32,776 bases of DNA from a virus. The position numbers were made by a program, and so were the translations under genes. A model generated the notes under the pieces. It had not been told where the DNA came from. It searched no databases and saw only the letters and a program-made list of their open reading frames with translations. The number at the start of each line of letters is the position of its first letter. Position 1 is the stretch's first letter. The stretch is taken from the IMG/VR virus record IMGVR_UViG_3300000117_000106, positions 320 to 33,095 of that record. One strand, written 5' to 3'. Positions 4,240 through 29,486 of the stretch are shown here, in pieces.

Positions 4240-4296
4240 AATTATTAACAGTTTTTTTATAACTTAGCCTTATATTAATTTTTTAAATTTTTTTTT
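4240..4296 (+). promoter_or_regulatory. Candidate promoter ahead of the helicase operon
   Basis: A 57-base AT-rich gap contains TATATTAA (4271-4278), fitting the TAnnTTTG -7 box partly. The upstream element is not a clean TTTG; ATTATTAAC (4241-4249) resembles TTGTTGATAA of the two better promoters. A T-rich tract lies directly before ATG 4297. Confidence 0.35.
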
Positions 4297-11078: not shown

Positions 11079-11578
11079 ATGTAAAGTGGGATGTTAAATT
11101 AAAAGATTGGCAAAACTCAAATCCGGTTTTGTATTACGAAACAAATGCCTACCCGAATAAGTTTGACTTTAATGAGGCAGACTTTAATTCAGTTTTAGAT
11201 GGTAAAGGACATCAATTAAAAACTTGGGGAGGTGCAGAGAGTACCGGAGATCCGCATTGGATTGGAGTAAGGAAAGCTACACCGTTACATACAGATCCAA
11301 GGTATCCTAGATACAGTTGGCAATTAGTATTAAAGGTTGATAACTTTGGGTTAAGGGGAGTTGATAAAGACGAATTGCATTTAGAGGACAATATGCTAGT
11401 GCTACTTGACACACATTCACCACATCAACTTTTCTCTAGGAGTAAAGACGCAATGTATTATTTGGCTTGTAGTATGGATAGCAAAACTTTAATTGGCAAA
11501 AGGAGAGCCAAAGAAATGCTAATTAATTTTGTAGACAATCATTCTTTAGTAGACGATACAAAAAGAATATTTAAATGA
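11075..11578 (+). CDS. Putative 2OG-Fe(II) oxygenase / double-stranded beta-helix enzyme
   Basis: The 167-residue protein shows PLHTDPRYPRYSWQLVLKV (70-88) and LVLLDTHSPHQLFSR (108-122). H72 and D74, with a distal His (114 or 117), would form the HxD...H iron triad of 2-oxoglutarate oxygenases, on strands consistent with a jelly-roll core. ATG 11075 is chosen because it makes an ATGA overlap with the methyltransferase stop; ATG 11051 would add eight residues. It sits between a methyltransferase and a PAPS-reductase-like gene. A cupin without oxygenase activity is the alternative. Substrate unknown. Confidence 0.6.
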   Translation: MNVKWDVKLKDWQNSNPVLYYETNAYPNKFDFNEADFNSVLDGKGHQLKTWGGAESTGDPHWIGVRKATPLHTDPRYPRYSWQLVLKVDNFGLRGVDKDELHLEDNMLVLLDTHSPHQLFSRSKDAMYYLACSMDSKTLIGKRRAKEMLINFVDNHSLVDDTKRIFK

Positions 11579-12723
11579 AGATCTACAAAAAAACCAACGT
11601 ATATGAAGAGGCATTAAATAGGATACGTTATTTATACGAAGAGTTTGACGATGTAGTCGTAGGTTACTCAGGCGGAAAAGACTCGACTGTGACGCTTAGA
11701 TTAACTGTACAAGTGGCTAGAGAACTAGGTAAGCTACCGGTCAAAGCATTATTCTTAGATCAAGAGGCAGAGTGGGGTGCGGTTATAGATCATATGCGAG
11801 AAGTAAATGAGGATCCCGACATAGATCTAAGGTGGTATCAAATACCCTTTAAGATATTTAACGCATCGTCTAATATTAAACAATGGGTTATCGCTTGGGG
11901 AGAAGGGGAGGAGTGGATGCGAGATAGAGAGCCAAACTCTATAACGCAAAACAATTATGGTACAGAAAGATTCTATGAGTTGTTTAATAAAATAATAGCA
12001 ACGGATTTTCCGGATCGCACCGTATTATTGGGGGGTGTAAGGTCAGAAGAAAGCCCTAGAAGGCACGTGGCTATGACTCAAGATGTAACTTACAAATACA
12101 TTACTTGGGGTAAAAAGCTTAACCCGGAGAAAGATCAATTTACATTCTATCCTATTTACGATTGGTCATACACAGACGTATGGAAGTCTATACACGATAA
12201 CAATTGGAGTTACACTAAAGTTTATGACTACCAATATATGTACGGTGTCCCGGTTAGGAATATGAGAGTGTCTAACTTGCATCACGAGACGGCAATACAA
12301 ACGTTATTTTATTTGCAAGAGATAGAAAAAGATACTTGGTTAGCATTAACAAAACGTATGTCCGGAATTGACACTGCAGGTAAGTTAAGTAAGGATGACT
12401 ATTTTGTAAAAGAGTTGCCGTTTATGTTTAAGTCTTGGGAAGATTACAGAGATTTCTTAACAGAAAAGCTAGTCAATAATGACAAAGTAAAAGCTAAGTT
12501 TAAAAAGAAGTGGACGTTGTACGATAATCGCTACGAAAAAATGCTCAATAGAAACAAACTTATAAAAGCAGAGATCAATACAATTTTAGCCAACGATGAG
12601 GATTTAACTAAATTGCGTAACTTTACAGAAACACCTGAGATGGAGGACTTTAGAAGATGGACTAGAGGAGAGCCAATTAAGTACACTAGAATTAAAAACA
12701 AATACATACCGGATGAGTTATAA
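11575..12723 (+). CDS. PAPS-reductase-like PP-loop protein (IbrA-like, DUF3440 type)
   Basis: The 382-residue protein has the PP-loop SGGKDST at 32-38 in VVVGYSGGKDSTV. Further family segments are ALFLDQEAEW, GGVRSEESPRR and YPIYDWSYTDVWKSIHDNNW, followed by a long C-terminal extension like that of IbrA/DUF3440 proteins. I see no cysteine anywhere in it, so it lacks the catalytic Cys of true PAPS reductases (ECGLH). It probably uses ATP to activate a substrate by adenylation. Its immediate partner downstream is an IbrB-like ParB protein, the pairing known from E. coli prophage ibrAB. It is coupled to the oxygenase gene by ATGA. Confidence 0.8.
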   Translation: MKIYKKTNVYEEALNRIRYLYEEFDDVVVGYSGGKDSTVTLRLTVQVARELGKLPVKALFLDQEAEWGAVIDHMREVNEDPDIDLRWYQIPFKIFNASSNIKQWVIAWGEGEEWMRDREPNSITQNNYGTERFYELFNKIIATDFPDRTVLLGGVRSEESPRRHVAMTQDVTYKYITWGKKLNPEKDQFTFYPIYDWSYTDVWKSIHDNNWSYTKVYDYQYMYGVPVRNMRVSNLHHETAIQTLFYLQEIEKDTWLALTKRMSGIDTAGKLSKDDYFVKELPFMFKSWEDYRDFLTEKLVNNDKVKAKFKKKWTLYDNRYEKMLNRNKLIKAEINTILANDEDLTKLRNFTETPEMEDFRRWTRGEPIKYTRIKNKYIPDEL

Positions 12724-13378
12724 GAAGGCTATCAAAAAAGAACTAGACAACGCAAAGGATCCCATAGAGTTTCTAGAACAAGTCAAAGAATACATAGACG
12801 AGATCTCTCCGCTAAACCATCAGCCTATAAACAGAGTGCGATGGGTAGAACTAGACCAAGTACAAGCTAATGACTACAATCCTAATAGTGTCGCTAAGAC
12901 CGAAATGAAACTATTGTACACCTCTATTTCACACGACGGATATACACAACCGATAGTTACAGTATATGACGAAAAGAAAAACAAGTATGTTATCGTAGAT
13001 GGATTTCACAGATACTTTACGTCAAAAAGATACAAAGACATAAGCGAGAGGAATCACAATAGATTGCCGGTGGTAGTAATCGACAAAGACATTAACGACA
13101 GAATGGCGTCTACTATAAGACACAATAGGGCAAGAGGTAAGCACTCCGTATCCGGGATGAGTAATATTGTATTCGAGATGCTAGATAACGGTTGGGAGGA
13201 TGTAGACATTTTAAAAGAACTAGGTATGGAGGCAGAGGAGTTGATACGTCTAAAACACATTACCGGATTCTCAAAACTATTCGAGGACACAGAGTACAAA
13301 CAATCTTGGGAACTAAAAAAACAATTGCAAATTAAAAAGAAATACAAAGATGAAAATCCAAAAGAAAAAATTATCTGA
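12713..13378 (+). CDS. ParB-like nuclease-domain protein (IbrB-like)
   Basis: The 221-residue product carries a ParB/Srx-like fold. It shows RWVELDQVQANDYNPNSV (43-60), DGYTQPIVT (75-83), YVIVDGFHRY (92-101) and RHNRARGKHS (136-145), then an HTH-like segment (DILKELGMEAEELIRL). The VDGFHR motif is the ParB nucleotide/catalytic site; RHNRARGxH is typical of IbrB. It overlaps the IbrA-like gene by 11 bases, so the two are likely made together and act as a complex. The biochemical role of the pair is not firmly established; nucleic-acid modification and transcription control have been proposed. Confidence 0.75.
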   Translation: MSYKKAIKKELDNAKDPIEFLEQVKEYIDEISPLNHQPINRVRWVELDQVQANDYNPNSVAKTEMKLLYTSISHDGYTQPIVTVYDEKKNKYVIVDGFHRYFTSKRYKDISERNHNRLPVVVIDKDINDRMASTIRHNRARGKHSVSGMSNIVFEMLDNGWEDVDILKELGMEAEELIRLKHITGFSKLFEDTEYKQSWELKKQLQIKKKYKDENPKEKII

Positions 13379-13892
13379 GATAAAGCCATATTGGAGAAAC
13401 GCTAGGAAAAATAACAAGACCGTAGATGCGTTGAAGAAGTCTATACAAAAGTACGGATTTAACCAACCTTTAGTGTTAGATAAAAAAAACGTTATAATAA
13501 CAGGACACGCTAGATACAAAGCACTAACACAACTTGGATATGAGGAGGTTGATTGTGTAGTCGCAGAACTAGACGAACAAAAGGCAAAGGAGTACAGAAT
13601 AGCAGATAACAAAACACACGAACTAACCATATGGGATAACGATGAGTTAATGGTAGAGTTGAGAGAGATAGGAAACAATGTAGATATGCAAGACTACTTT
13701 CAAAACATAAACCTAAACAATTGGCTAGACGATAGCGTGGGATTCAATATAGACGAAATAACACAAACCGACTACCAACAAAAGCAAGAGGAGATGGAGA
13801 GCAAATACAAAGATCCACTACAAAAGAAGGCTACCATAACTTGCCCACATTGTTTCGAGGAGTTTGAACTAGATAAAAAAGACATACTATAA
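13350..13892 (+). CDS. Second ParB-like nuclease-domain protein with Cys knuckle
   Basis: A 180-residue protein whose first ~110 residues form a ParB-like domain: LSEIKPYWRNARKN (8-21), YGFNQPLVLD (35-44), IITGHARYKAL (49-59) and EYRIADNKTHEL (81-92). In many phages this same domain is the N-terminus of DNA methylases; here the methylase part is absent. The C-terminus ends with TCPHCFEEFELD, half a zinc ribbon (CPHC, 165-168). It overlaps the IbrB-like gene by 29 bases and precedes the small terminase, so it could link DNA marking to packaging. That link is inference. Confidence 0.75.
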   Translation: MKIQKKKLSEIKPYWRNARKNNKTVDALKKSIQKYGFNQPLVLDKKNVIITGHARYKALTQLGYEEVDCVVAELDEQKAKEYRIADNKTHELTIWDNDELMVELREIGNNVDMQDYFQNINLNNWLDDSVGFNIDEITQTDYQQKQEEMESKYKDPLQKKATITCPHCFEEFELDKKDIL

Positions 13893-13924: not shown

Positions 13925-14275
13925 ATGAGTGACAAAAGTGACACTAAAAAAAAGGCAATGATAGACGCACTAGAAAATTCACTAGGCATAGTATCCGTTG
14001 CGTGTAAGAAAACAAACATTAGTAGGCAAACGCATTATAGATGGTGCGAAGAAGATGCGGAGTATGAGAAAGAAGCCAAAGGTATAATTGAAGCAACTAT
14101 TGATTTTGTCGAGTCAAAGTTATTTGAGAATATATCAAACAACAAAGAGGCATCAATAATGTTCTACTTAAAATCTAAAGCAAAGCATAGAGGCTATGTA
14201 GAAAGACAAGAGTTAGATATGGGTAACAATAACCACTTCCGCATAGAGATCATAGATGAAGAGTTACCGGACTAA
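13925..14275 (+). CDS. terS: Terminase small subunit
   Basis: The 116-residue protein has an N-terminal helix-turn-helix, SLGIVSVACKKTNISRQTHY (19-38) followed by RWCEED, of the type used by TerS proteins to read the packaging site. A helical oligomerisation region (IDFVESKLFENISNNKEASI) and ASIMFYLKSKAKHRGYVER follow, a segment common to phage TerS and homeodomain-like phage proteins. It overlaps the large terminase by 20 bases. Together they recognise and cut concatemeric DNA. Gene position directly upstream of terL supports the call. Confidence 0.85.
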   Translation: MSDKSDTKKKAMIDALENSLGIVSVACKKTNISRQTHYRWCEEDAEYEKEAKGIIEATIDFVESKLFENISNNKEASIMFYLKSKAKHRGYVERQELDMGNNNHFRIEIIDEELPD

Positions 14276-15416
14276 CATAGTCTTTAGACATCTTGAACAA
14301 TCTAAAAAGAGAATTACGATTGAGCAAGGGGGAACTAGATCCGGGAAAACGTTTAACATTCTTTTATGGATCATATTCTCGTATTGCCTAAGAAACAAAA
14401 ACAAAACTATCTCAATTGCTAGAAAGACATTTCCTTCGCTAAGGACATCTGCAATGAGAGACTTCATAGAAATACTAAGACAAAGCGAATTATATGACGA
14501 CCTTCTTCATAACAAAAGTAGTGCTGAATATCGCCTTAACAACAATCTTATTGAATTCATTTCGTTAGACCAACCGGCAAAGGTGCGTGGTAAGAAAAGA
14601 GATTTGCTATTCATAAACGAGGCAAACGAATTGCATTGGGAAGATTGGCAACAATTAATATTCCGTACAAAAGAAAAGATCATTTTAGACTACAATCCGT
14701 CAGACGAGTTTCATTGGATCTACGACAAAGTAAAGACAAGAGAGGATGCGGATTTCTACATTACTACATATAGAAACAATCCATTCCTTGACAATTCTAT
14801 TAAGTCTGAGATAAAGCGTTTGAAGGACACAGATCCAAACTATTGGAAGATCTATGGACTAGGTGAGGTTGGAGCCGGCAAAAGCCTTATATTCAATTCT
14901 AGCTTAGCTGATAGCATTCCGGAAGAAGCGCAATTCTTATCATACGGTATGGACTTCGGATATACAAATGACCCGACGACACTAATTGGCGTTTGGAAGT
15001 ATGACACAAATTTGTATTTCAAAGAGTACATTTATCGCACCGGTATGACTAACCAAGATATTGCTAAGGAACTTGAAAGACTAGACATCGGAAGAAGGCA
15101 AGAGATCTTCGCAGATTCAGCAGAGCCAAAGAGCATAGATGAGATCTACAAATTCGGATGGAATATTAAACCGGCAACTAAGGGTAGAGACTCAATTAAT
15201 ATTGGGATAGATATGCTAAAGAGGTACAAGCTATTTGTAACTAAGGATAGCCAAAACACAATTAAGGAGTTTAGGAATTACAAGTGGAAGGAGGACAAAA
15301 ATGGTAACGTATTAAATCAACCTGTGGATATGTACAACCATAGTTTAGACGCTTGTCGTTATGCGACATATAACAAACTAGCAAGACCTAACTACGGCAA
15401 ATACGCAATCAGATAA
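14256..15416 (+). CDS. terL: Terminase large subunit
   Basis: This is the packaging motor and nuclease. In the 386-residue product the ATPase part shows Walker A GGTRSGKT (25-32), KTFPSLRTSAMRDF and Walker B LLFINEA (117-123). The RNase-H-like nuclease part shows GMDFGYTNDPTTL (231-243), FADSAEP (285-291) and a distal Asp in HSLDACRYA (362-370). The layout resembles PBSX-type terminases. Length is slightly short but all catalytic motifs are present. It docks on the portal (29905) during DNA filling. The upstream start 14256 lies inside terS and is the only one giving a full N-terminus. Confidence 0.93.
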   Translation: MKSYRTNIVFRHLEQSKKRITIEQGGTRSGKTFNILLWIIFSYCLRNKNKTISIARKTFPSLRTSAMRDFIEILRQSELYDDLLHNKSSAEYRLNNNLIEFISLDQPAKVRGKKRDLLFINEANELHWEDWQQLIFRTKEKIILDYNPSDEFHWIYDKVKTREDADFYITTYRNNPFLDNSIKSEIKRLKDTDPNYWKIYGLGEVGAGKSLIFNSSLADSIPEEAQFLSYGMDFGYTNDPTTLIGVWKYDTNLYFKEYIYRTGMTNQDIAKELERLDIGRRQEIFADSAEPKSIDEIYKFGWNIKPATKGRDSINIGIDMLKRYKLFVTKDSQNTIKEFRNYKWKEDKNGNVLNQPVDMYNHSLDACRYATYNKLARPNYGKYAIR

Positions 15417-15433
15417 AAATAGTTTATTAAAAA

Positions 15434-15492
15434 TTTGTTGATAACAAAAAAAAGTCGTATATTAGAGTATTGTTTAATTAAAACCTAATATT
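15434..15492 (+). promoter_or_regulatory. Bacteroidota-type promoter and leader (copy 2)
   Basis: TTTG (15434-15437), a 20-base spacer and TATATTAG (15458-15465) form the promoter. AGTATTGTTTAA (15466-15477) and TTAAAAC follow before ATG 15493. The upstream word TTTGTTGATAA and the 27-base distance from the leader word to the ATG are the same as at 7458-7515. Confidence 0.75.
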
Positions 15493-15681
15493 ATGAGTAG
15501 AATTATTAAATGCGAATTTTCCTCTAAGGAAATAAGTATTATTGAAAAAGCTTTGCGAGATGCTAAAACAAAAACTTATCGTGAAGGAAAAGTGGATCTT
15601 TCTCGCTCGATCCAAAATGTTAAATCTAAAATCCTTAAATTTGAGAGAGAAGGATTGGAAACTATAAATGTAACGATATGA
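15493..15681 (+). CDS. Hypothetical protein, first gene of accessory island (62 aa)
   Basis: A basic 62-residue helical protein (IIEKALRDAKTKTYREGKVD) without a recognised family. It follows the second copy of the conserved promoter/leader and overlaps the next gene by 4 bases (ATGA). Its location between terminase and tail genes, on its own transcription unit, suggests an early accessory function such as host takeover or anti-defence; there is no motif evidence for either. Confidence 0.6.
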   Translation: MSRIIKCEFSSKEISIIEKALRDAKTKTYREGKVDLSRSIQNVKSKILKFEREGLETINVTI

Positions 15682-15905
15682 TGAAAGTAGAAACTAAAAT
15701 TGAAAGAGCCGTTGACAAAGTTCGTGAAGAAGCTTTTGATAACCGTATGCGTGTCGCTAGAGAGATTGGAGGCGTGTTAGGAGAACTAGGTATTTTGAAA
15801 ATACAACTAGAGGTAAGAAATGAATCGGGTAGTAGTATTGATACTCTTGAAGTTATTGAAAGACTAGATGCGATTTATGAGAAACTAGATAAAATGAAAT
15901 TATAA
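15678..15905 (+). CDS. Hypothetical protein, second gene of accessory island (75 aa)
   Basis: A 75-residue charged helical protein. Amphipathic helices run at ~1-25 (KVETKIERAVDKVREEAFD) and ~55-75 (SIDTLEVIERLDAIYEKLDK), so it likely oligomerises. It overlaps the previous gene by ATGA and the next start by one base (TAATG). No family was recognised. Confidence 0.55.
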   Translation: MMKVETKIERAVDKVREEAFDNRMRVAREIGGVLGELGILKIQLEVRNESGSSIDTLEVIERLDAIYEKLDKMKL

Positions 15906-16207
15906 TGGATACTAGATTTGAACACTTAGGATACCACTTAGATTTGTATTGCCCTCGTACTAAAAAGTATGAGGGTAGCATTACTTTGTCCGACGACGTT
16001 GTAGAAACGTATGAAGGTCGTGAGATGGGTTACGTTGGACGTAAAGAAGAATTTATAATTGCCGAAGGCAGAAAGGGTATGAAAGAGAAGGTCTTTAGTG
16101 GCGATTATATTACCGAACTTGTACCGTTATGCGGTAGACTTGTCGGAGATAGGTTTAATACCTTGCGAGATGTACATCAAAGAACTATTGCTATGAGACG
16201 ACACTAA
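15905..16207 (+). CDS. Hypothetical protein, third gene of accessory island (100 aa)
   Basis: A 100-residue mixed alpha/beta protein beginning RFEHLGYHLDLYCPRTKKYE, with strands and a basic C-terminus (DVHQRTIAMRRH). No catalytic motif is evident. It is the last gene before a strong terminator at 16234, so the three-gene island is a closed transcription unit. Confidence 0.55.
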   Translation: MDTRFEHLGYHLDLYCPRTKKYEGSITLSDDVVETYEGREMGYVGRKEEFIIAEGRKGMKEKVFSGDYITELVPLCGRLVGDRFNTLRDVHQRTIAMRRH

Positions 16208-16233
16208 TTTGGTTTTAGTTAATTGGGAAAATT

Positions 16234-16262
16234 GGGTATCTTTACGGATGCCCTTTTTTTTT
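16234..16262 (+). terminator. Rho-independent terminator after the accessory island
   Basis: GGGTATC (16234-16240) pairs with GATGCCC (16247-16253) in a 7-bp stem with one G-T pair and a 6-base loop, followed by nine T (16254-16262). Confidence 0.85.
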
Positions 16263-16294
16263 GCTCAAATAATAAATAATGACGTTATATTAAT

Positions 16295-16963
16295 ATGGAA
16301 ATCAAAGTACAAATCCCGGACACATTAAATGAGATCACACTAGCGCAATACTCAAAGTATCTCGACATCGTAGATCAATACACAAGTATGCGTGAGGACA
16401 AAAGTTCAGATAGCTTTTATTTGCTAAAGACACTAGAGATATTTACAGGCATAAATTACGAAGATGGACTCAAGCTAAAATTAAGCGACGTAAGACGTAT
16501 TGTTTCCAAGCTTGAAGGTCTACTATCACAAAAGCCTGAACTAGTAAGAGAGTTTACGCTAGGCGATACATCGTTTGGATTTATACCCAAGCTAGACGAT
16601 ATGACGTTTGGAGAGTACATAGACCTAGATACCAACTTGTCGGATTGGTCAGAAATGTATAAGGCTATGGCGGTTTTATACAGACCGATACAAAAGAAGT
16701 ATGACGGTCTTTATACAATAGAACCATACAAAGGAGATGTATACTACGAAGCAATGAAGCTTATGCCTTTAGATGCGGTCTTTAGTAGCCTGCTTTTTTT
16801 TTATCATTTAGGGATGGAATTGTCGATAGGTATGACGAAATTTTTGGAAACGGAGAGCAAGGAATTAACCTTGACTCAACAACAAACTTTACAAGAAAAT
16901 GGGGTTGGTATCAGTCGATCTATACACTTGCTCAAGGAGATGTTACAAGATATAAAATTATAG
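16295..16963 (+). CDS. Tail assembly chaperone, zero-frame product (G-like)
   Basis: The 222-residue protein has an N-terminal part (~1-100) read as a small folded domain: LNEITLAQYSKYLDIVDQY, TFGEYIDLDTNLSDW. A helical C-terminus follows (FFYHLGMELSIGM, LTLTQQQTLQENGVGI, LLKEMLQD). Similar proteins with the QENGxGI...LKEML ending occur before tail genes of Bacteroidota phages. At residues ~167-169 the message holds nine T, where a -1 shift gives a longer form (see 16801-17061). By analogy with lambda G/GT the short form would coat the tape measure during tail assembly. It follows the terminator and opens the tail cluster. Confidence 0.7.
   Translation: MEIKVQIPDTLNEITLAQYSKYLDIVDQYTSMREDKSSDSFYLLKTLEIFTGINYEDGLKLKLSDVRRIVSKLEGLLSQKPELVREFTLGDTSFGFIPKLDDMTFGEYIDLDTNLSDWSEMYKAMAVLYRPIQKKYDGLYTIEPYKGDVYYEAMKLMPLDAVFSSLLFFYHLGMELSIGMTKFLETESKELTLTQQQTLQENGVGISRSIHLLKEMLQDIKL
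16794..16802 (+). promoter_or_regulatory. Nine-T slippery site for -1 frameshift
   Basis: Zero-frame codons are CTT (16793) TTT TTT TAT. A T-TTT-TTT heptamer permits a -1 slip into TTA (16801). The -1 frame has a TAG at 16783-16785 just upstream, so it can be entered only near this run. Nine T could also cause RNA polymerase slippage. Confidence 0.75.
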
Positions 16964-17061
16964 AGGAGATGAATTTAAACACTTGCTTATTGGCGTTGTG
17001 TTTCGAAAAAGAGAAGAGTGATCTAGAAGCCAAACAAATTAAAAACAGTTTTAAAAAATGA
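16801..17061 (+). CDS. Tail assembly chaperone, -1 frame extension (T-like)
   Basis: In the -1 frame after the T run, 86 codons stay open and end in TGA at 17059-17061, making an ATGA overlap with the next gene. The sequence reads like a real domain: RDGIVDRYDEIFGNGEQG, FTRKWGWYQSIYTLAQGDVT, then YKIIEEMNLNTCLLALCFEK and KEKSDLEA. The KWGWYxSIYxLAxGDxT...LxFEKEK pattern is one I know from the shifted part of phage tail chaperones. The first in-frame ATG is near the end, so it is not an independent gene. Fused to residues 1-169 of the gene at 16295 it gives about 255 aa. This form would recruit the tail tube protein. Confidence 0.8.
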   Translation, partial: LSFRDGIVDRYDEIFGNGEQGINLDSTTNFTRKWGWYQSIYTLAQGDVTRYKIIEEMNLNTCLLALCFEKEKSDLEAKQIKNSFKK

Positions 17062-17525
17062 GCGTAGGCGCACAAGGATTTTATTTATTGACCGACAAAA
17101 TTAAGGATGAGTTGCTAAGCAACGATCATATTAATACTGTTACGTTTGGAGATATTACAGAGATAGATCTAAGTAAGCAAACTATATTTCCACTAGGACA
17201 CATAATGATAAACAACGTTACTCAACAAGAGAGGGTGTTATCTTTTAGCATAACCGTAATGACTATGGACGTTGTAGACACATCTAAAGAGGCAACCGTA
17301 GATTTGTTTGCCGGAAACGATAACGAACAAGATGTCCTTAATACACAACTTGCCGTATCAAATAAGCTTGTAGAAAAGCTAAGATCCGGAACGCTATACA
17401 CTAGCAAATACCAACTAGATGGTAATCCGGTATGCGAACCATTTGTAGATAGGTTTGAAAATAAGATTGCCGGATGGGCAACCACAATAACTGTGCTTAT
17501 ACAAAACGATATTTACATATGCTAA
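17058..17525 (+). CDS. Tail terminator-like / tail completion protein
   Basis: A 155-residue alpha/beta protein. An N-terminal helix (LLTDKIKDELLSNDHINTVT) is followed by strands (HIMINNVTQQERVLSFSITV, GWATTITVLIQNDIYIC) separated by a helix with NTQLAVSNKLVEKLRSG. The pattern fits tail-terminator folds of siphophages, and its position between chaperone and HK97-gp10-like gene agrees. The call rests on fold appearance and synteny. It starts by an ATGA overlap with the shifted chaperone frame. Confidence 0.5.
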   Translation: MSVGAQGFYLLTDKIKDELLSNDHINTVTFGDITEIDLSKQTIFPLGHIMINNVTQQERVLSFSITVMTMDVVDTSKEATVDLFAGNDNEQDVLNTQLAVSNKLVEKLRSGTLYTSKYQLDGNPVCEPFVDRFENKIAGWATTITVLIQNDIYIC

Positions 17526-18043
17526 AGTTTGAGAATTTACAAAAGGCATTAACGAAGTACAGAGACATTGTAATAGATGAAGCTAAGAGCAACCTTTTAA
17601 GAGATGGAAAAGTAGCAAGTGGTAACCTATATAACTCCATAAAGGGATCGCCTGTTAAAACGTCTAAAAATAGCCTACAATTTAATATTGAGATGCCTTA
17701 CTACGCTACGTTTGTAGATAAAGGTGTAAGTGGTACAGAAAAAAAGTACAATACTCCATACGCATATACCGGATCTAAGAAGATGATACCACCTAGCAAA
17801 CTAGACAAATGGATAGTCAAAAGAGGTATCGCACCTAGAGATAAAGATGGCAAATTTATAACTAGAAAAAGTTTGCAATATGCTATTGCTACTAACATAT
17901 ATAAAAGAGGTATCAAACCTAGTTTGTTTTTTACTAAGCCATTCGAAAAGTATTTTGTAAACCTACCGGCAGAAATTGTTGAGTCTTTTGCATTAGACGT
18001 ACAAGAGTTTATGTCTTTAATAATCAAACAAAACCAAAGATAA
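17519..18043 (+). CDS. HK97 gp10-like tail/neck completion protein
   Basis: The 174-residue product starts at ATG 17519, 7 bases inside the previous gene; a longer start at 17474 would add 15 residues and a large overlap. It has a helical start (LQKALTKYRDIVIDEAKSNL), GNLYNSIKGS (~38-47), MPYYATFVDKGVSGT (~59-73) and the C-terminal FFTKPFEKYF. The GxLYxSI...YYxxxVExG pattern is the signature of the HK97-gp10 family that joins head and tail. Confidence is good on pattern, moderate on exact role. Confidence 0.65.
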   Translation: MLKFENLQKALTKYRDIVIDEAKSNLLRDGKVASGNLYNSIKGSPVKTSKNSLQFNIEMPYYATFVDKGVSGTEKKYNTPYAYTGSKKMIPPSKLDKWIVKRGIAPRDKDGKFITRKSLQYAIATNIYKRGIKPSLFFTKPFEKYFVNLPAEIVESFALDVQEFMSLIIKQNQR

Positions 18044-18044
18044 T

Positions 18045-19526
18045 ATGAGCAAGATTAATGCAAGGAGTCCATTCTACGTTTCATTTAGCACACCTACTCC
18101 ACCTACTCCGGAGTTTACTTGTGCGATAGCTAATGCTAGTGGATTTAGCATAGATCAAGAGGGAGTAATTACAGAGCCACAATTCGAGTTTGGAACACTA
18201 GATTCTTTTACAAGTAGCGATGCCGGATTTAGTAATGGCAAATATGCGGTTGTAACTAGCGACACAAATAGGACAGTAGTTTTTAGAATAGCAATACCAA
18301 GTGGCTTTAGTAATTCGGCTGATGGGTTTTTAAATTGTTCTTTAACATTCACACAACCTAAAAAGGTTACAAGTGGTGCAACGCCAAGTTGTTCGGGTGG
18401 TCCAACTGTAAACGGTAGTGTACCGGCTCAAACTTTAAATAGTGGAGGCAATACTGTTACAGTTAATCTAGCATCATATTTTACTCAAGGAACTTCTGCA
18501 ATAGCCGGATACACAATTAGTAATTATCACACCGGGTTTATGCAAGCGTCTGTATCGGGATCTACTCTTACAATTACAAGCGCTAATGTAGGTGGCACTA
18601 AAACGTTATACGTCGCAGCTTTTGACAACGACACAAATACTTGTACTGCCGTACAATCTGTTTCGGTTACTATAAATGTATCAACTGCATTTAGTTGTAC
18701 TACTGCAGGTTTAGTTGGAGGAAGTATTGCACAAAACGGAACAATTACAGACCCGGTTACAACGGGAACAATTACTGCTAGAAAACTAACATCGGGAGGT
18801 TCAACTATAACAAATGCGGGTGCAAATAACACAAGTAGTGCAGTTTCAAAAGATTTGTTTTTTGATATAACAGTTCCTTCAGGATATTCTAATACAGGCG
18901 CAACAATAGAGTGTTCTAAAACTTATTCTCAACCCGGAACAGGATTGGTAGCATTTACTTGTAGCGATCTTGTATTAACAAACCAAGGGATTTATACAGA
19001 TGGATCGATTAGGTTTGGAGAAACTAATGCAGGTACTTTAATTGATTTTAGTCCTAAAAGCTTTCCGGTTGTAGATACAGACACAAATAGAACTTTGACT
19101 TTAACAATAACCGCACCTAGCGGATACTCAAACTCCGGGTCAAATATAGATTGTACAAAAGTAGTAACGCAACCTGCAAATATTCCAATTTGTGGAACTG
19201 TATCTTATTACATAGCTTTAGATTTTGTAGCTACAGTAGAGAGTGACTTTTGTCAATCCGGTTATAGTTTAAGAGCAAACACACAAATACTTAGTACGGC
19301 AACCGATATTACAGACGCATACGGACATACGGTTTGTACGGCAGCCGGAACGCCATTTGCAGGAAGGTCTGATTATTATAGAGTAGATACTTATCTAAAC
19401 CCTGCACCTGTAAGTGCATCGTCTGGCGATTTTTTTATATGGCAAATAGATAATGCCGGAGTAATTGTAGACGTATGGAGATGGAATTGTGAAAGTGGAG
19501 GAGACGGTCAAGGATTTCAAACTTAA
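18045..19526 (+). CDS. Repetitive Ig-like structural protein (tail or decoration)
   Basis: In this 493-residue protein one module occurs three times, at ~24-105, ~216-297 and ~303-377. Each begins [EA]F[TS]C, has an internal G-x-[IL]-x-x-x-G-x-[IV] and ends I/APSG[FY]SN...[NE/D]C[ST]K...[TS]QP. Between copies 1 and 2 (~115-212) lies a cadherin/Ig-like domain (PAQTLNSGGNTVTVNLASYF). A distinct Cys-containing C-terminal domain (~383-493) follows. Paired cysteines at fixed positions may form disulphides outside the cell. It lies between tail completion and baseplate genes, so a tail-surface protein is likely. Confidence 0.55.
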   Translation: MSKINARSPFYVSFSTPTPPTPEFTCAIANASGFSIDQEGVITEPQFEFGTLDSFTSSDAGFSNGKYAVVTSDTNRTVVFRIAIPSGFSNSADGFLNCSLTFTQPKKVTSGATPSCSGGPTVNGSVPAQTLNSGGNTVTVNLASYFTQGTSAIAGYTISNYHTGFMQASVSGSTLTITSANVGGTKTLYVAAFDNDTNTCTAVQSVSVTINVSTAFSCTTAGLVGGSIAQNGTITDPVTTGTITARKLTSGGSTITNAGANNTSSAVSKDLFFDITVPSGYSNTGATIECSKTYSQPGTGLVAFTCSDLVLTNQGIYTDGSIRFGETNAGTLIDFSPKSFPVVDTDTNRTLTLTITAPSGYSNSGSNIDCTKVVTQPANIPICGTVSYYIALDFVATVESDFCQSGYSLRANTQILSTATDITDAYGHTVCTAAGTPFAGRSDYYRVDTYLNPAPVSASSGDFFIWQIDNAGVIVDVWRWNCESGGDGQGFQT

Positions 19527-19532
19527 AAAAAT

Positions 19533-20522
19533 ATGGCAACATTAAAAACCGCAACTTTAGAAGTGTATATTTATAGTGGTACGTCAGGTAGTTATAGTGC
19601 GTCTGATTTAAAATACACTCTACAAAAAGAAATAATAACAGGCGAAACTAAGATTGTCTTTGAAATTGCCGAACTAGTAAGGGACTATCTTGCTATGACT
19701 TTTAACAATGATTATACGTCAATCACTACGTGGGTCACAACCGTAACTACTTTGATAGACGATACAGGTGTAACGTTTACATATGGAAGTCCTGTAACTA
19801 GCACATATCTAGCTATGGACGGTTATGGGTATTATGAGGAAGCAATAAATCCGCAAACGTCTACGAGCGCATTAATAACGGCAAATACAATTTACCTTCC
19901 GGAAGGCGTAGCCGGAAAGCTACCATTATACGCACCGGGAGTGGGAAAAATAATAATTGATAGTACCACTACACAAATTACCGATTCGGGTAACTCCAAT
20001 CAAAAAATACAATATGCAACAATACCGGCTGATAGTTCAGAAGTTAAAGTTTATGATACAGATGATACTACCTTACTCAGAACTATTACAATTATTAATC
20101 AATGCGAACCCAAGTTTACAAATTACAAAGTTACGTTTGTCAATAAGAATGGTGCATTCCAAGATATGTACTTTTTCAAAAAAACGACGGAGAGTCTAAG
20201 TGTGACGGATGAGAACTTTCAAAGTAATATTATAGACAACTCTAGTGTTACTTATAACACATATAGGTCGCAACAAACTAGATACAACGTAAACGCCAAA
20301 ACTAAGTTACAATTAAACACAGGGTTTATAAACGAGGATAGCAATAGTGCAATAGAGGAGTTGTTCCTTTCTAAGAACGTTTGGATTAGATATGAGAGCA
20401 AAACCTTACCGGTTGTACCTACGTCAAAAGATCTAACGTTTAAAACGTCTCTAAATGACAAATTGATAAACTATACAATAGACTTTGAATTTGCATTTAA
20501 TAAAATAAACAATGTCAGATGA
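19533..20522 (+). CDS. Tail/baseplate structural protein, unknown family
   Basis: The 329-residue, beta-rich protein has LVRDYLAMTFNNDYTSITTW (~48-67), YLAMDGYGYYEEAINPQ (~91-107) and VTFVNKNGAFQDMYFFKKTT (~200-219). I have seen the DGYGYxEEGxNP and NKxGAxQDxxFFKK elements in structural proteins of Bacteroidota phages without assigned function. It overlaps the next, very large tail gene by ATGA, so the two are probably partners in the distal tail. Confidence 0.55.
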   Translation: MATLKTATLEVYIYSGTSGSYSASDLKYTLQKEIITGETKIVFEIAELVRDYLAMTFNNDYTSITTWVTTVTTLIDDTGVTFTYGSPVTSTYLAMDGYGYYEEAINPQTSTSALITANTIYLPEGVAGKLPLYAPGVGKIIIDSTTTQITDSGNSNQKIQYATIPADSSEVKVYDTDDTTLLRTITIINQCEPKFTNYKVTFVNKNGAFQDMYFFKKTTESLSVTDENFQSNIIDNSSVTYNTYRSQQTRYNVNAKTKLQLNTGFINEDSNSAIEELFLSKNVWIRYESKTLPVVPTSKDLTFKTSLNDKLINYTIDFEFAFNKINNVR

Positions 20523-23500
20523 TCGGACTACAACTTTATGTGGAAAACCAATTGGTAGAATTGTTTGATGATGAAAGCGTTACTCTTACACAAGCGATTC
20601 AAGATGTAAGAAACATAGACAAAATATTTAGTGATTTTAGCAAAACCTTTTCCGTACCGGCAAGCGAAACAAACAATAAAATATTTAAGCATTTCTACAA
20701 CTACGAAATTAACAATGGGTTTGATGCGAGAAAAAAAGTAGACGCTGAACTATATTTGAACTACAAGCTTTTTAAAAAAGGCAAAGTAAAGCTAGAAGGT
20801 ACAACGCTAAAAATAAACAAAGCGCACACTTACAAACTAACCTTCTTTGGCAATACTGTAAATCTAAAAGACAAAATAGGAGAGGCTACATTAAGCGATT
20901 TGCCAAACCTTACAGAGTTAGAGTTTGAATATAGCGACGCAAATATAAAATCATTATTAAATACTGCTACATCTAAAACGATGAACGGTGTTGTATTTCC
21001 AGACGTTTTGTTAGTGCCGTTAATAACACACACTAAGAGGCTCATATATAACTCCGGCAGTTCGGCAGCTAATACGGATACTTTAGCAAATGTATCATAT
21101 ACTGCGGGACAAAATAAAGGAGTTGAGTTTGACCAATTAAAACCTGCAATTAGAGTTCACGCTATTATAAAAGCAATAGAAAGAAAGTTTTTCTCAGAGG
21201 ATGGATTTACTTTTTCTAAAGACTTTTTCTCATCTAGCAACCCTAGTTATTACAGTTTGTTTTTATGGCTTCATAACAAAGTTGGATCTATGTTTAGCGA
21301 TCAACCGGAACAAGTTAAGTTTACAAATTTTATACTTGTAAGCAAAAGCGGATCTAAAAAAAATTCTGTAATTGATTTCTACAAAAATTACTTTGTAAAT
21401 AAAAGCAAACTATCTTCGGGCATACACAACGATAGAACTAGGCAACTAAGGTTTAGTGTAGCGACAACTAATCAATCTGCAAAATACACAATCTATTTGT
21501 ATAGAGATGGCGAGTTGCTAAAAGAATACAAAGACTTACAAGGCGACAAATTTCCGCAAGATTACTTTTTTATACTTGACGGAACTTACACTTTTGCAAT
21601 TACGTCTGACACAGTTGCTACTTTTACAATTAGTCCTAGAATAAAAACCACTTTAGGTAGCATAGGCATTAAAGGTACTGCGGTAACGATAACTAATAAA
21701 AAAGTACAAATTACTGAGCAGTTACCTAAAATTAAGGTGATAGATTTTCTTACAGGAATTTTTAAGATGTTTAACCTTACGGCTTTTATACAAGATGATA
21801 AGAAGATTAAAATACAAACGCTAGATAATTTTTATGCTAACAATACAACCTTTCGAGACATAACTGAGTTTGTAGACAAAGAGTCCTCTATTGTAGATAG
21901 CGTATTGCCATACAAACAAATCAACTTTAATTACAAAGGGGATAAGAGTTTTATGGCGTCAAACTTTGAGCAAATATTTAATCGAAAGTGGGGAACGCTA
22001 AATTATAATGCTAGCCAAAAATTTGACGGACAAGTTTACGAAGTGCAATTGCCTTTTGATCATTTTATGTTTGAAAGACTAAACAACGTTACAGGTGGCG
22101 CACAAACAAATATACAATGGGGTTGGAGTGCTGACGAAAAGCAACAAGCATATTTAGGTGATCCACTTTTGTTTTATCCTGTTCTTAATTCGGGAACAAG
22201 TATTGGTGTATTAGACTCTGGCGGAACTGTGTCAGAAGTTACGTCTTATTTTGTGCCGTCTAACTCTTTGCATTTAAGCAATTCTTTAAGTGATGACTCT
22301 AGCGACAACATAAATTTTAATGCAGAGACAAACGAGTATCAAGGCACTCCGTTTAATAAATCTTTATTTGAGAAGTATTATAAAAGCTACATAGAAGATG
22401 TCTTTGACATTAAAAGAAGATTGACAAAAGTAAAAGCATATTTACCTGTATCTATTTTACAAAATCTAACGCTATCAGATAAGCTAGTAATATTTAACAA
22501 GGTTTATAAGATCAATAAAATTGTAACAAACTTTGAAACATTATTAAGCAACCTAGAGTTAATAAATACTACAACCGAGCAAATACCAATTATACCTAGC
22601 AAATTTTTGCCTGTCTCGACAGATACAAATCTATCAGCAGATTCAAATGAATTTACGGTTGATAACGGTATTATAACTGTAGATAAGTATAACAACACAG
22701 AAGGCTTACAAGTAATTAGTACAGACGAAGTAGTGCCGGAAGATACAAGCGTTTCTAACATTCCAGAAGTAATTGTTAGTGGACAAGCGCTTATTGTTAC
22801 TCCTCCTAATTTGACCTACCTTAAAACTGCTGAAACTAGTTCAACGGTAAGTCCATCTTTTACTGTAACAAACTTAGGAAAAGTAGGTACGACACCGCAA
22901 ATAGATGAGTATGGATTCTTTTATTCTACAACTAGATCACATTTAAATTCAACCGACATAGATACTTTAAAGTCAGGATCTGCGACTAATATAAAATACA
23001 CCACTAGACCAACAAATAAAAACACATTATCCGGAAATATAATTTATCAAATTACAGGACTATCTGCCGGAGATGTCGTCTATTATAGATTTTATGGTAT
23101 GACTACAACCGACGAATCATTTGACATTTCTAGTGGCGAGATGCTTAGTCCGGTTTTATCTGAAAGAGCAACGCCAAGTATAAGCTACACTACTACAACT
23201 AGCACATATCTATACAACGTAATGAACTCAAGCGGCAGCGCTAGAGGAGATGGTAATACTACCTTTAGGATTAAAAACGGAGATGGAACATTCTTTGATG
23301 TCAAAGGTTTTTCAGGACCAAGTTTGTTTAGTCTAATAGTGCCGGTTGTAATTGAAGGAGATGCGGTAACATATCAATCGCAATTTTATGGAGGTAGCTT
23401 TACCGGAATATCAACACACAACACAAGTAGACAAGCTGTAGGAAATGATATTTTTGATAGAGAATTAGAGTCTTGTGGATTTCACACAACTAGCAGATTT

Positions 23501-23833
23501 AGTGCAGAAGAGTTTTCTAAAAACGCAGATTCGACAGAAGGATCTACATTATCTAATGGACAAAAATTAACTAGACTAGCTTTTTATAATCAAGGCAATC
23601 CGTCTAGTGAACCTTTGGCGGTATACAGACCGTTGAAAGAAGGGTTTGGATTAATGCAATTAACCACGTATGGCGTTTACCAAGAGAATGATGAAAGTAA
23701 TAAACTATTGTATGCAGAAGATGGGTTTTATGCTTTTTACAATAGTAATACAAGTGGCGAATATAAACCTGGTCAAGGTGTGTCGGGTCAAGTTGTAAAT
23801 GGAATAGTAACAAAAGTACAAACGTATTACTAA
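20519..23833 (+). CDS. Large tail protein (baseplate hub / distal tail), 1104 aa
   Basis: The N-terminal ~120 residues (LQLYVENQLVELFDDESVTL, IFSDFSKTFSVPASETNNKI) fit a conserved start of large tail proteins from Bacteroidota phages. A long beta-rich middle follows, with a possible carbohydrate-binding part near 310-380 (YTIYLYRDGELLKEYKDLQG). Residues ~760-880 look like a fibronectin III/Ig domain (NLTYLKTAETSSTVSPSF, YGFFYSTTR, GLSAGDVVYYRFYG). The C-terminal ~220 residues may bind receptors. It precedes the tape measure gene. I infer a tail-tip hub that carries the fibres; enzymatic motifs were not seen. Confidence 0.6.
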   Translation: MIGLQLYVENQLVELFDDESVTLTQAIQDVRNIDKIFSDFSKTFSVPASETNNKIFKHFYNYEINNGFDARKKVDAELYLNYKLFKKGKVKLEGTTLKINKAHTYKLTFFGNTVNLKDKIGEATLSDLPNLTELEFEYSDANIKSLLNTATSKTMNGVVFPDVLLVPLITHTKRLIYNSGSSAANTDTLANVSYTAGQNKGVEFDQLKPAIRVHAIIKAIERKFFSEDGFTFSKDFFSSSNPSYYSLFLWLHNKVGSMFSDQPEQVKFTNFILVSKSGSKKNSVIDFYKNYFVNKSKLSSGIHNDRTRQLRFSVATTNQSAKYTIYLYRDGELLKEYKDLQGDKFPQDYFFILDGTYTFAITSDTVATFTISPRIKTTLGSIGIKGTAVTITNKKVQITEQLPKIKVIDFLTGIFKMFNLTAFIQDDKKIKIQTLDNFYANNTTFRDITEFVDKESSIVDSVLPYKQINFNYKGDKSFMASNFEQIFNRKWGTLNYNASQKFDGQVYEVQLPFDHFMFERLNNVTGGAQTNIQWGWSADEKQQAYLGDPLLFYPVLNSGTSIGVLDSGGTVSEVTSYFVPSNSLHLSNSLSDDSSDNINFNAETNEYQGTPFNKSLFEKYYKSYIEDVFDIKRRLTKVKAYLPVSILQNLTLSDKLVIFNKVYKINKIVTNFETLLSNLELINTTTEQIPIIPSKFLPVSTDTNLSADSNEFTVDNGIITVDKYNNTEGLQVISTDEVVPEDTSVSNIPEVIVSGQALIVTPPNLTYLKTAETSSTVSPSFTVTNLGKVGTTPQIDEYGFFYSTTRSHLNSTDIDTLKSGSATNIKYTTRPTNKNTLSGNIIYQITGLSAGDVVYYRFYGMTTTDESFDISSGEMLSPVLSERATPSISYTTTTSTYLYNVMNSSGSARGDGNTTFRIKNGDGTFFDVKGFSGPSLFSLIVPVVIEGDAVTYQSQFYGGSFTGISTHNTSRQAVGNDIFDRELESCGFHTTSRFSAEEFSKNADSTEGSTLSNGQKLTRLAFYNQGNPSSEPLAVYRPLKEGFGLMQLTTYGVYQENDESNKLLYAEDGFYAFYNSNTSGEYKPGQGVSGQVVNGIVTKVQTYY

Positions 23834-23973
23834 TGATAGACAATATTTTAACGTTGCTAGAAGTAGCAAAAGAATATGACGTAGAAGGGGACTACATAAA
23901 AGAGGCATTAGGAAAACACAAACTACCTATGTCTTTTAAAGATGTTAAGAACAACCTAAAACTAAACAAATGA
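23833..23973 (+). CDS. Small hypothetical protein before the tape measure (46 aa)
   Basis: ATG 23833 overlaps the previous stop by one base, and the 46-codon frame ends in an ATGA overlap with the tape measure gene. The product looks helical (MIDNILTLLEVAKEYDVEGD; SFKDVKNNLKLNK). Perfect tiling of the gap supports it as real. It may be a small tail-assembly factor; no family was recognised. Confidence 0.6.
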   Translation: MIDNILTLLEVAKEYDVEGDYIKEALGKHKLPMSFKDVKNNLKLNK

Positions 23974-25823
23974 AAGAGGAGGTTATAAAATTACAGATGG
24001 ACGTTGAAGACGCAACAAAGTCTATCAAACGTATGACTGACGAGATGGAAGATTTCAGAAAAGAAGTCAAAAATTCTCTAGACGGCATAGAAGAAACAAC
24101 CGACAAAGGAGTAAAGGGATTCCAAAAGCTTACGAAAGCCGTAAAGGGTGTTGGGAGTGGTTTTAAGGGGATTGGATTAGCAATTAAAGCAATTGGGTTT
24201 ACTCTTATAGTTAAAGCCGTAGGAAAGCTTACAGAGGAGTTAGGGAAAAATCAAGTAGTAGCTGATGCGGTCAATACGGTGTTTAAAACTGTGTCTATTG
24301 TATTCGGTCAAATTGCAACCGCTATTGTCGAGGTTGTTAAAAATGTATCCGAAGCAACTAATGGGTTTGACGGTTTGCGTAAAGTATTAAGCGGTGGTTT
24401 TTCACTAGCGTTAAATCTTGTCGTAGGTGCTATACAAGGTATTGTCTTAAACGTTAAAAAGGCACAACTAGCGTTTGAGGAATCTATGTTTGGTGGCAAA
24501 GATGCTGACAAAATAAAATCTCTACAAAACGACATAGACGAAGTAGGGAAAAAGCTAGATGAGACCGGAGAGAGAATAGCAGATGCCGGGAACAATATTA
24601 AAGATGGCTTTTTGGAAGCAGTCGAAGAGGTTGGAACTTTAGCCGAAGCAGTAGCAACCGGTACTGCAGAAGCAATCTCTAAAATTAACGTAGAACAAGC
24701 TGCGCAACAAGCAAAAGCGTTAGTTGAGGCGGAGAAAAACTTTGAGTTACTTGCTTTACAACAACAAAGATTAGTAGAGGAATATGATCGACAAGCGGAA
24801 TCTCAAAGACAACTTAGAGACAACGAAGCAATAAGTATATCTGAAAGGATTGAGGCTAACAAAGAACTAGGCAAAATACTAGAGGATCAAGGTAAAGCTG
24901 AGAAGGCAACAGTAGATGCTAGAATAAAATCTATACAACAAAGGATAGCTATTGAAGGGGAGAGTGTAGAATTAACAAACGAGTTATACACTTTAAATAC
25001 TGAACTAGTTGCAATTGAAGCAAAGCTTACAGGATTTAGATCGGAACAAAAGACAAACGAAAACGCATTACGTAAAGAGTCTTTAGAGTTACTAAACACA
25101 GAAAAAGAAGCAGAAAATGAGATTGCTATTTCTAGAGCAAATTTTAATGCTGAGCAAATAAAAATTGAAACACAAAGAATAGACGCTCTAAGGGAGGCAT
25201 TAGATCTAGAGAAGCAAATAGAACTAGCTAGAGTACAAAGTCAAATAGACGCTGCTAAAATAGGCACACAAGCCTATGCAGACGCTACGGCAGAGAAGTT
25301 AAGACTAGAGGAAGATTATAGGCAACGTGAGGAAACGTTAAATGAAGAGTCTTTATTAGCTGAAGAAAATTTAAGACAACAAAAGCTACAAATAGTTGGA
25401 TCTACCTTTGGCGCAATATCTGACATACTAGGCAAAAATTCTAAAGCAGGTAAAGCAGCCGCAATTGCACAAGCCGTAATAAATTCTTATTTAGGGTTTA
25501 CAGAAGTGTTAGCAGCTGAGACTACAATCCCCGAGCCATTTGGAAGTATACAAAAAGGAATATCCGCTGCTAGTATATTAGCATCCGGTTTACAAACTGT
25601 AAAAAAAATTACTGCTACTAAACTACCACAAGGAGATGTCGGAGGAGGAGGCGCACCATCTGCACCGCCAAGCTTTAATATTGTAGGTGCGTCAAAAGAG
25701 AATCAACTAGCACAAGCTATCGGAGGTCAAGAGAAAAAACCTGTAAAAGCGTTTGTAGTATCGTCAGATGTTAGTAGTGCGCAATCTCTAGATCGTAATA
25801 TTGTAGAGGAGGCATCAATATAA
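23970..25823 (+). CDS. Tail tape measure protein
   Basis: The 617-residue protein has coiled-coil ends and hydrophobic stretches. The N-terminal coiled coil is at ~1-45, a Gly-rich hydrophobic block at ~55-85 (GSGFKGIGLAIKAIGFTLIV), membrane-like helices at ~95-160 (FGQIATAIVEVVKN, LALNLVVGAIQGIVL), and a long coiled coil at ~240-480. A second small-residue block (KAAAIAQAVINSYLGFTEVL, ASILASGLQTV) and a flexible tail follow. This matches tape measures, which fix tail length and exit with the DNA. By the usual ~1.5 angstrom per residue the tail would be roughly 90 nm (rough inference). Confidence 0.8.
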   Translation: MKEEVIKLQMDVEDATKSIKRMTDEMEDFRKEVKNSLDGIEETTDKGVKGFQKLTKAVKGVGSGFKGIGLAIKAIGFTLIVKAVGKLTEELGKNQVVADAVNTVFKTVSIVFGQIATAIVEVVKNVSEATNGFDGLRKVLSGGFSLALNLVVGAIQGIVLNVKKAQLAFEESMFGGKDADKIKSLQNDIDEVGKKLDETGERIADAGNNIKDGFLEAVEEVGTLAEAVATGTAEAISKINVEQAAQQAKALVEAEKNFELLALQQQRLVEEYDRQAESQRQLRDNEAISISERIEANKELGKILEDQGKAEKATVDARIKSIQQRIAIEGESVELTNELYTLNTELVAIEAKLTGFRSEQKTNENALRKESLELLNTEKEAENEIAISRANFNAEQIKIETQRIDALREALDLEKQIELARVQSQIDAAKIGTQAYADATAEKLRLEEDYRQREETLNEESLLAEENLRQQKLQIVGSTFGAISDILGKNSKAGKAAAIAQAVINSYLGFTEVLAAETTIPEPFGSIQKGISAASILASGLQTVKKITATKLPQGDVGGGGAPSAPPSFNIVGASKENQLAQAIGGQEKKPVKAFVVSSDVSSAQSLDRNIVEEASI

Positions 25824-25857
25824 AAACCAAATATTTAATTACAAACGTTATAACAGT

Positions 25858-26490
25858 ATGAGAATTGTAGAACTTATTATTGACGAACTAGATGAGAATA
25901 GTGGAATAGACGCTATCTCTATTGTAGAGAGTCCGGCTATTGAAGAAGATTTTGTTGCGTTATCTAAAGAGCCAAAAATAAAACTAGCAGAAGTAGACGG
26001 AGAAAAAAGAATCCTAATGGGCGCAATCTTAATTCCAAATAAACCCATATACAGACAAGAGGGAGACGATGAGTATTACATTTACTTTACAAAAGAGACT
26101 GTAAGAAAAGCGTCAGAGTTATATCTAAAAAAAGGCAATCAAAATAATTCTACATACGAACACTTCCAAGATATATACGGTTTGTCGCTAGTAGAAAGTT
26201 GGATAGTAGAGGACAAAGAGAAAGACAAAACTAGACTATATGGTATGGATCTACCTTTAGGGAGTTGGGTAGGATCTATGAAAGTGTATAACGATGAGGT
26301 ATGGCAAGAGTATGTTAAGACAGGTATGGTCAAAGGATTCTCAATAGAAGGTTATTTTGCCGACAAAGCAGAGCGACCAAAAGAGCAAATAAAAGACGAA
26401 TTAAAAGAGATTGAAGCCGGTAAGAAATTGCTACAAATTAAAAAAAGTTTAATCGAATATCAACAAAATGAGAGACAAAGTAAGGGGTAA
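25858..26490 (+). CDS. Prohead protease, XkdF / S78-like
   Basis: The 210-residue product shows IDAISIVESPAIEEDFVAL (17-35), MGAILIPNKPIYR (~54-66), a histidine in STYEHFQ (~98-104), LSLVESWIVE (~109-118), and PLGSWVGSMKVYND with MVKGFSIEGYF (~157-167). These are the conserved blocks of the PBSX XkdF-like prohead proteases; His ~102 and Ser in VESW fit a His/Ser catalytic pair. It would cleave the scaffold and capsid delta regions during maturation. Scaffold, decoration and capsid genes follow. The C-terminal ~35 residues form a basic helix. Confidence 0.75.
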   Translation: MRIVELIIDELDENSGIDAISIVESPAIEEDFVALSKEPKIKLAEVDGEKRILMGAILIPNKPIYRQEGDDEYYIYFTKETVRKASELYLKKGNQNNSTYEHFQDIYGLSLVESWIVEDKEKDKTRLYGMDLPLGSWVGSMKVYNDEVWQEYVKTGMVKGFSIEGYFADKAERPKEQIKDELKEIEAGKKLLQIKKSLIEYQQNERQSKG

Positions 26491-26617
26491 GTATTCAAGT
26501 CCAAAAGGAGGGAGAAGAGGGTGTTTGTGTTGGGATACTGAGACGTATTCTACAAAGTGTTGCGACGGACATTATAGATCGCAAGGCGTGGGTCGTGTAA
26601 CAAAATTGCCTAGTTAA
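26468..26617 (+). CDS. Small Cys-rich protein (49 aa)
   Basis: This 49-codon gene overlaps the end of the protease gene by 23 bases. It encodes GGRRGCLCWDTETYSTKCCD then GHYRSQGVGR, with CLC and CC pairs. I recognise the G-C-L-C-x-D-x-x-T-Y-S-x-x-C-C-D pattern from small proteins beside capsid genes in Bacteroidota phages. Metal binding or disulphides are possible; role unknown. Confidence 0.65.
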   Translation: MRDKVRGKYSSPKGGRRGCLCWDTETYSTKCCDGHYRSQGVGRVTKLPS

Positions 26618-26635
26618 ATTTTTTTTACAACAAAA

Positions 26636-26764
26636 ATGCAAAAAAAAATCATTAAACGTTATACTAACAGATCAAAGTATATTGAATATAAAATTTCTGA
26701 TATGCCTTATTCTAACTTTGTAGAAGAAAAAGGTATTTGTGCAATTTTTAAAAAAACAAAATAG
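26636..26764 (+). CDS. Small basic hypothetical protein (42 aa)
   Basis: The ATG at 26636 follows an A/T-rich leader typical of this genome, and the 42-codon frame ends 3 bases before the scaffold start. The product is basic and aromatic (KKIIKRYTNRSKYIEYKISD). No family was recognised; the tight fit in the gap supports expression. Confidence 0.5.
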   Translation: MQKKIIKRYTNRSKYIEYKISDMPYSNFVEEKGICAIFKKTK

Positions 26765-26767
26765 TTT

Positions 26768-27493: not shown

Positions 27494-27502
27494 AAATTAA
27501 TA

Positions 27503-27916: not shown

Positions 27917-27942
27917 TAATTAAAAAAATAAATATTTAAAAA

Positions 27943-28866: not shown

Positions 28867-28887
28867 TTAAAATTGTTTAATCAAAGA

Positions 28888-28922
28888 GGGTAGGTGAGCC
28901 TTGAGCCTGCCTACCCTTTTTT
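28888..28922 (+). terminator. Rho-independent terminator after the major capsid gene
   Basis: GGGTAGG (28888-28894) pairs perfectly with CCTACCC (28910-28916) around a 15-base loop, followed by six T (28917-28922). It would reduce transcription into the tail tube and portal genes. Confidence 0.85.
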
Positions 28923-28935
28923 AATATTATAAAAT

Positions 28936-29460: not shown

Positions 29461-29486
29461 AATTTCCTTTCTAGTTTCTTGAAAAG

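Follow-up and report, generated by a model that had tools for sequence, protein, structure and literature searches.

The window that we analysed, a stretch of 32,776 nucleotides, is part of a 34.7 kb metagenomic virus record, and the analysis suggests that this virus comes from a Bacteroidota-type host. The gene considered here, which we call the slip gene, lies on the plus strand. Its 0-frame ORF (positions 16295 to 16963) encodes 222 amino acids, matches PHROG 32199 (function unassigned), and yields an AlphaFold2 model with a pLDDT of 86.7. Within this ORF lies a run of nine T (T9; 16794 to 16802), the putative slip site, which is read in the 0 frame as CTT TTT TTT TAT and includes an in-phase heptamer T TTT TTT at 16795 to 16801. 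Just 5' of the run, two tandem TAG codons (16783 to 16785 and 16786 to 16788) close the -1 frame; past the run, that frame is open for 86 codons (16801 to 17058) and ends at a TGA (17059 to 17061) that overlaps, as ATGA, the start of the next gene at 17058. The -1 extension as a whole (16795 to 17061) carries a KWGWY motif and matches PHROG 38404 in relatives; its first ATG comes only about 59 codons in, too late to serve as a usable early start. The next gene (17058 to 17525, plus strand, 155 amino acids) matches PHROG 30964, likewise of unassigned function, and the order of these two genes is kept in relatives. A preliminary description of this DNA had given the end of the 0-frame ORF, the position of the run, the length of the -1 frame, the ATGA overlap, the first of the two TAG codons and the want of an early ATG in the -1 frame, and all of these hold base by base, with the second TAG codon added here. 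Read straight through, the gene would give the short protein of 222 amino acids; a slip into the -1 frame would give a long protein that shares its first ~169 residues with the short form and continues into a helical domain of ~86 residues.

Runs of nine T are expected by composition in this AT-rich window, where we found five and shuffled sequences gave an expectation of 5.6. The case for a slip site therefore rests on conservation, and what is non-random about the run in the slip gene, as judged by comparison, is its position together with that conservation. Each of two further T9 runs (29507 to 29515 and 4288 to 4296) immediately precedes an ATG that lies at a gene start or close to one. 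The run at 29507 comes after the end of the gene before it and could be the tail of a terminator.

We searched with the 0-frame protein, with distant members of its family and with the extension, and after removal of identical sequences had 272 unique complete relatives, nearly all from viral contigs. Bacterial genomes, searched with profiles and proteins, contributed further loci from Flavobacteriaceae, and slip-gene loci were present in 28 of 101 genomes of one Bacteroidia family. The Bacteroidia set comprises 31 loci, nearly all of them prophage loci in bacterial genomes and one a viral contig (L405), and the genomic context is distinct at each. Among cultured phages, Nonlabens (Persicivirga) phages P12024S and P12024L have an identical T9 site with a protein identity of about 31%. 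A relative of the slip gene is also present in a metagenome-assembled genome labelled Euryarchaeota (L084), which is probably a wrongly binned virus contig.

All 80 close homologues have exactly nine T in the same phase. The run is nine T long in 254 of the 272 viral sequences and ten T long in the other 18; none has seven, eight, or 11 or more. By register, 249 have T9 as in the window, 16 have T10, five have T9 in a third register and two have further T10 forms. The 31 Bacteroidia loci all have exactly nine T, in a different register (NNT TTT TTT TTR). An in-phase T TTT TTT, which conforms to the X XXY YYZ pattern of slippery heptamers, is found in all 272 viral relatives and in all other split-gene relatives. 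We considered whether the peptide-based search might have favoured sequences with T-runs, and set this aside: most search patterns lay away from the site, both TTT and TTC were allowed when Phe was back-translated, and the genome searches with profiles made no use of the peptide patterns.

Conservation of the -1 frame starts exactly at the run. Across the 272 viral sequences, residue conservation in that frame ranges from 0.24 to 0.69 over the ten codons leading up to the run; from the run onward the values are 1.00, 1.00, 0.92, 0.56, 0.97 and 0.96. On a tree of 106 divergent representatives, the two Phe codons in the run underwent 0 changes and 1 change at their third bases, against a mean of 31 changes for third positions of the gene; 24% of the Phe codons upstream of the run or elsewhere in these genes are TTC. 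Substitutions in the dual-frame overlap (16803 to 16960) follow the codon rhythm of the -1 frame, but the rhythm is damped. Moreover, among changes in the distal overlap that are silent in the -1 frame, those that would be radical in the 0 frame occur at half of expectation (P = 6e-5), and the region past the overlap has no such bias. The damped rhythm and the depletion of radical changes together indicate that both frames are read, with purifying selection on both and the stronger constraint on the -1 frame. Dual coding over ~160 bases, as the preliminary description had proposed, thus has statistical support over about 158 bases, and its reading of two products made by a slip into the -1 frame gains strong comparative support from the T9 or T10 in all 272 relatives and from the constraint on both frames.

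Runs of a single base are error-prone, and one rival reading is that the gene is broken or that a mistake in sequencing or assembly altered it. We regard this as vanishingly improbable: no tool result favours it, the run recurs across hundreds of contigs of independent origin as well as in bacterial genomes and the records of cultured phages, with nine or ten T in the 272 viral and 31 Bacteroidia sequences, and purifying selection acts in both frames.

It is also very unlikely that the two frames are separate genes, the second with its own internal start, as in the record of Nonlabens phage P12024S (genes 38 and 39), where a start for the second part is annotated at an ATG. The -1 frame is conserved from the run onward, starting well upstream of the annotated ATG, and 196 of the 272 relatives have no start codon there. 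We therefore rejected an independent internal start, for these reasons and because a clade with both parts fused exists. In this distant clade, from other Bacteroidota (L437, L440, L441-L450), the two domains form one ORF without a T-run at the junction. In L437, a single frame of 247 amino acids is matched both by the profile of the 0 frame (hhalign E = 3e-7) and by that of the extension (E = 6e-5); L440 is a second, weaker case, with a strong first domain (E = 2e-7) and a weak extension. The viral fused relatives number ten and are uninterrupted over the matched length. All share with the slip gene the two domains in identical order, and L437 and L440 also have similar next genes; they differ from it in being single uninterrupted ORFs with no T-run at the junction. 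We infer that the long product is a real polypeptide, because this distant clade encodes both parts as one protein. The preliminary description had taken single-frame homologues as a sign of assembly error; such homologues do exist, in the distant clade, but they do not point to an error, since in them the run is lost and the domains are fused. Taken together, the comparisons indicate that slippage at the T-run is selected, that both products are constrained, and that both parts belong to one polypeptide.

The length of the run bears on how the slip occurs. Five flanking arrangements share a floor of nine T: NTT TTT TTT TAY/TGG; NNT TTT TTT TTT (T10); CAG TTT TTT TTT CTT; CGG TTT TTT TTT GCT; and, at all 31 Bacteroidia loci, GCT/AGT/GGT/AAT TTT TTT TTR. 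The Leu codon at the Bacteroidia run is TTR in 31 of 31 loci, as against 43% of Leu codons elsewhere in the same genes. Lineages that lack the 5' T (the T10 clade, L396 and Bacteroidia) all have extra T on the 3' side, and those that lack 3' T (L208, L266 and L286) have extra T on the 5' side. When flanks were permuted over lineages, the probability of never falling below nine T ranged from 2e-3 to 7e-5, depending on the number of ordinary lineages counted. That the run is never shorter than nine, although seven T would suffice for a ribosomal -1 shift, is on these alignments a new observation. Amino-acid constraint nevertheless explains much of the run length, since within any one lineage each T beyond seven also encodes a residue in one frame (V, L or I before the run, Y or W after it, or Leu or Phe in the -1 frame), and the length argument, as read from these sequences, rests on a handful of independent register changes. 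In L266, L268 and L286, which occupy two separate positions on the tree, the nine T appear to have moved against the surrounding sequence, with two bases gained on the 5' side and two lost on the 3' side, and both frames stay intact.

RNA polymerase and the ribosome could each account for the slip. The RNA:DNA hybrid in transcription is 9-10 bp long, and a nine-T template would fill it; host RNA polymerase would then slip on this template, adding one U or dropping two, and the fraction of mRNAs that carry an altered run would encode the long product with no shift by the ribosome. Programmed transcriptional realignment has been recorded for T-runs longer than eight (PMC3711429), and the run in the slip gene falls within the general pattern of an A or T homopolymer of eight, nine or more whose length is kept. 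We lean towards slippage of RNA polymerase on the nine-T run as the source of the slip, because of the nine-T floor, the lack of heptamer turnover and the lack of detectable RNA structure nearby. The alternative is programmed -1 ribosomal frameshifting, in which the Phe tRNAs occupying the P and A sites would move back one base on U UUU UUU, on the model of lambda G/GT with a different heptamer. We consider this alternative possible but less likely. In its favour, every split-gene relative has the in-phase T TTT TTT that ribosomal slippage requires, the chaperone frameshifts of lambda and HK97 are ribosomal, and, to our knowledge, so is every tail-chaperone shift that has been studied experimentally. 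One tail-chaperone cluster also shifted at 6-7% when placed in reporters (PMC3711429). Against it, seven T would do, yet the floor is nine in several registers; there is zero turnover of the heptamer in more than 300 distinct sequences; and U_UUU_UUU is a weaker ribosomal shift site than A_AAA_AAG in E. coli (PMC5009743). Stimulatory RNA structure, which often though not always accompanies ribosomal frameshifting, also gave no signal downstream: in windows up- and downstream of the site in 78 sequences the mean z was about 0, although simple windows of this kind miss pseudoknots and long-range pairing. The same windows gave no signal for a terminator-like upstream hairpin that might act as a stimulator, inspection by eye found no Shine-Dalgarno-like stimulator upstream, and Rfam and tRNA scans were empty. 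The choice between ribosome and polymerase, which had been left open in the preliminary description, is thus tipped by run length towards polymerase, and the two may both act.

We next consider what the protein does. As in tail chaperones of the lambda G/GT kind, its gene has overlapping ORFs and a conserved programmed shift close to the end of the first one. By analogy, the slip gene is taken to work like lambda G/GT: the short form would coat the tape measure, as gpG does, and the long form would recruit the tail tube, as gpGT does. On balance, the protein is probably a tail chaperone. The short-form model aligns best with the HK97 chaperone (2ob9; Z = 3.6, rmsd 3.7 over 67 residues), a top rank tied with unrelated chains. 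The AlphaFold model of the extension is helical, at moderate confidence (76.8), and its matches among predicted viral structures are all unnamed or uncharacterised phage proteins, several of which, at 226-267 amino acids, may be fused forms. The gene follows the large terminase gene and precedes genes that resemble neck- or tail-completion genes. The chaperone label given earlier is plausible, but sequence comparison does not show it. No Pfam family matches the 0-frame protein or the extension; the PHROG matches, phrog_32199 for the 0-frame protein and phrog_38404 for the extension in relatives, have no assigned function; a PDB sequence search found no relative; Foldseek searches of the PDB with both models gave nothing under E = 0.001; and HK97 gp13 has no detectable sequence similarity to the family (hhalign probability 0.1). 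It is less likely, though well worth weighing, that the recoding is real and the protein is some other neck or tail assembly factor. The want of a chaperone profile match and the weakness of the fold match speak for this, as does the position of the candidate tape-measure gene (23970 to 25823, plus strand; PHROG 9483, tail length tape measure, E = 7e-6), which lies 7 kb and several genes downstream of the slip gene; adjacency is usual for G/GT, though not strictly required. A chaperone is favoured by the HK97 tail assembly chaperone heading a second-look structural alignment, by the fit of the two-product layout and small helical add-on domain, and by the lack of a rival candidate for the chaperone immediately upstream of the tape-measure gene.

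The surroundings of the slip gene have several further features. An intrinsic-terminator-like hairpin (GGGTATC-TTTACG-GATGCCC, 16234 to 16262) leads straight into another T9, at a distance of 32 bases upstream of the slip-gene ATG, which suggests that a new transcript starts between this hairpin and the slip gene. The order of the module at 14256 to 31842 is unusual: terminase, slip gene, neck and tail genes, and the tape-measure candidate are followed by an XkdF-like protease, then by a gene of 307 amino acids in the usual place of the major capsid gene, with the portal last. In the portal protein (29905 to 31839), a long addition at the C-terminus matches DUF3721 (E = 5e-7). Upstream, at 11575 to 13889, a PAPS-reductase-like gene precedes two genes with ParB_N domains, and a methyltransferase gene lies upstream of these.

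Recoded tail-chaperone genes are well known, and textbooks explain the control of phage tail length by ribosomal frameshifting, which makes two forms of one protein in a fixed ratio. The slip gene differs from lambda G/GT, whose slip heptamer is G GGA AAG, and from HK97 gp13/gp13-14 in having a nine-T homopolymer rather than a mixed heptamer, and in its long dual-coding overlap of 53 codons in the window and 7-84 in relatives. It also lies apart from the tape-measure gene, and HK97 gp13 shows no detectable sequence similarity to it. Programmed transcriptional realignment at A or T runs occurs in Shigella mxiE and spa13, in IS elements and in Thermus dnaX (A9); the slip gene resembles these in having a homopolymer of some nine bases whose length is strictly conserved, with an inserted or lost base opening the downstream frame, and differs in lying in a phage structural module and in also having an in-phase ribosomal heptamer. 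Genes 38 and 39 of phages P12024S and P12024L are homologous to the slip gene and have the identical T9 site, although their record lists two hypothetical genes and does not note recoding. We found no report of recoding for this family in open-access papers, the literature that we searched. What is new to that literature is the conservation of a nine-T homopolymer in phages and prophages of the Bacteroidota, together with the existence of natural relatives in which the two parts are fused.

We propose, with a probability of about 0.58 and on comparative sequence evidence, that in a group of tailed phages and prophages that spans the Bacteroidota RNA polymerase slips on a T-run kept at nine, a length that matches the polymerase hybrid, and that this slippage, in place of the ribosomal shift that such genes are assumed to use, fixes the ratio of the two tail-chaperone-like products. 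The work offers a function hypothesis for two PHROGs without an assigned function (32199 and 38404), and corrects the annotation of genes 38 and 39 in cultured phages P12024S and P12024L. Whether the ribosome or polymerase acts at the nine-T site is directly testable from the length of the run in RNA. If polymerase slippage is indeed the source, it would mean that the ratio between two forms of a protein can be set at transcription, as seen in a large and hitherto unannotated family whose conserved element is a run of nine T and not a heptamer.
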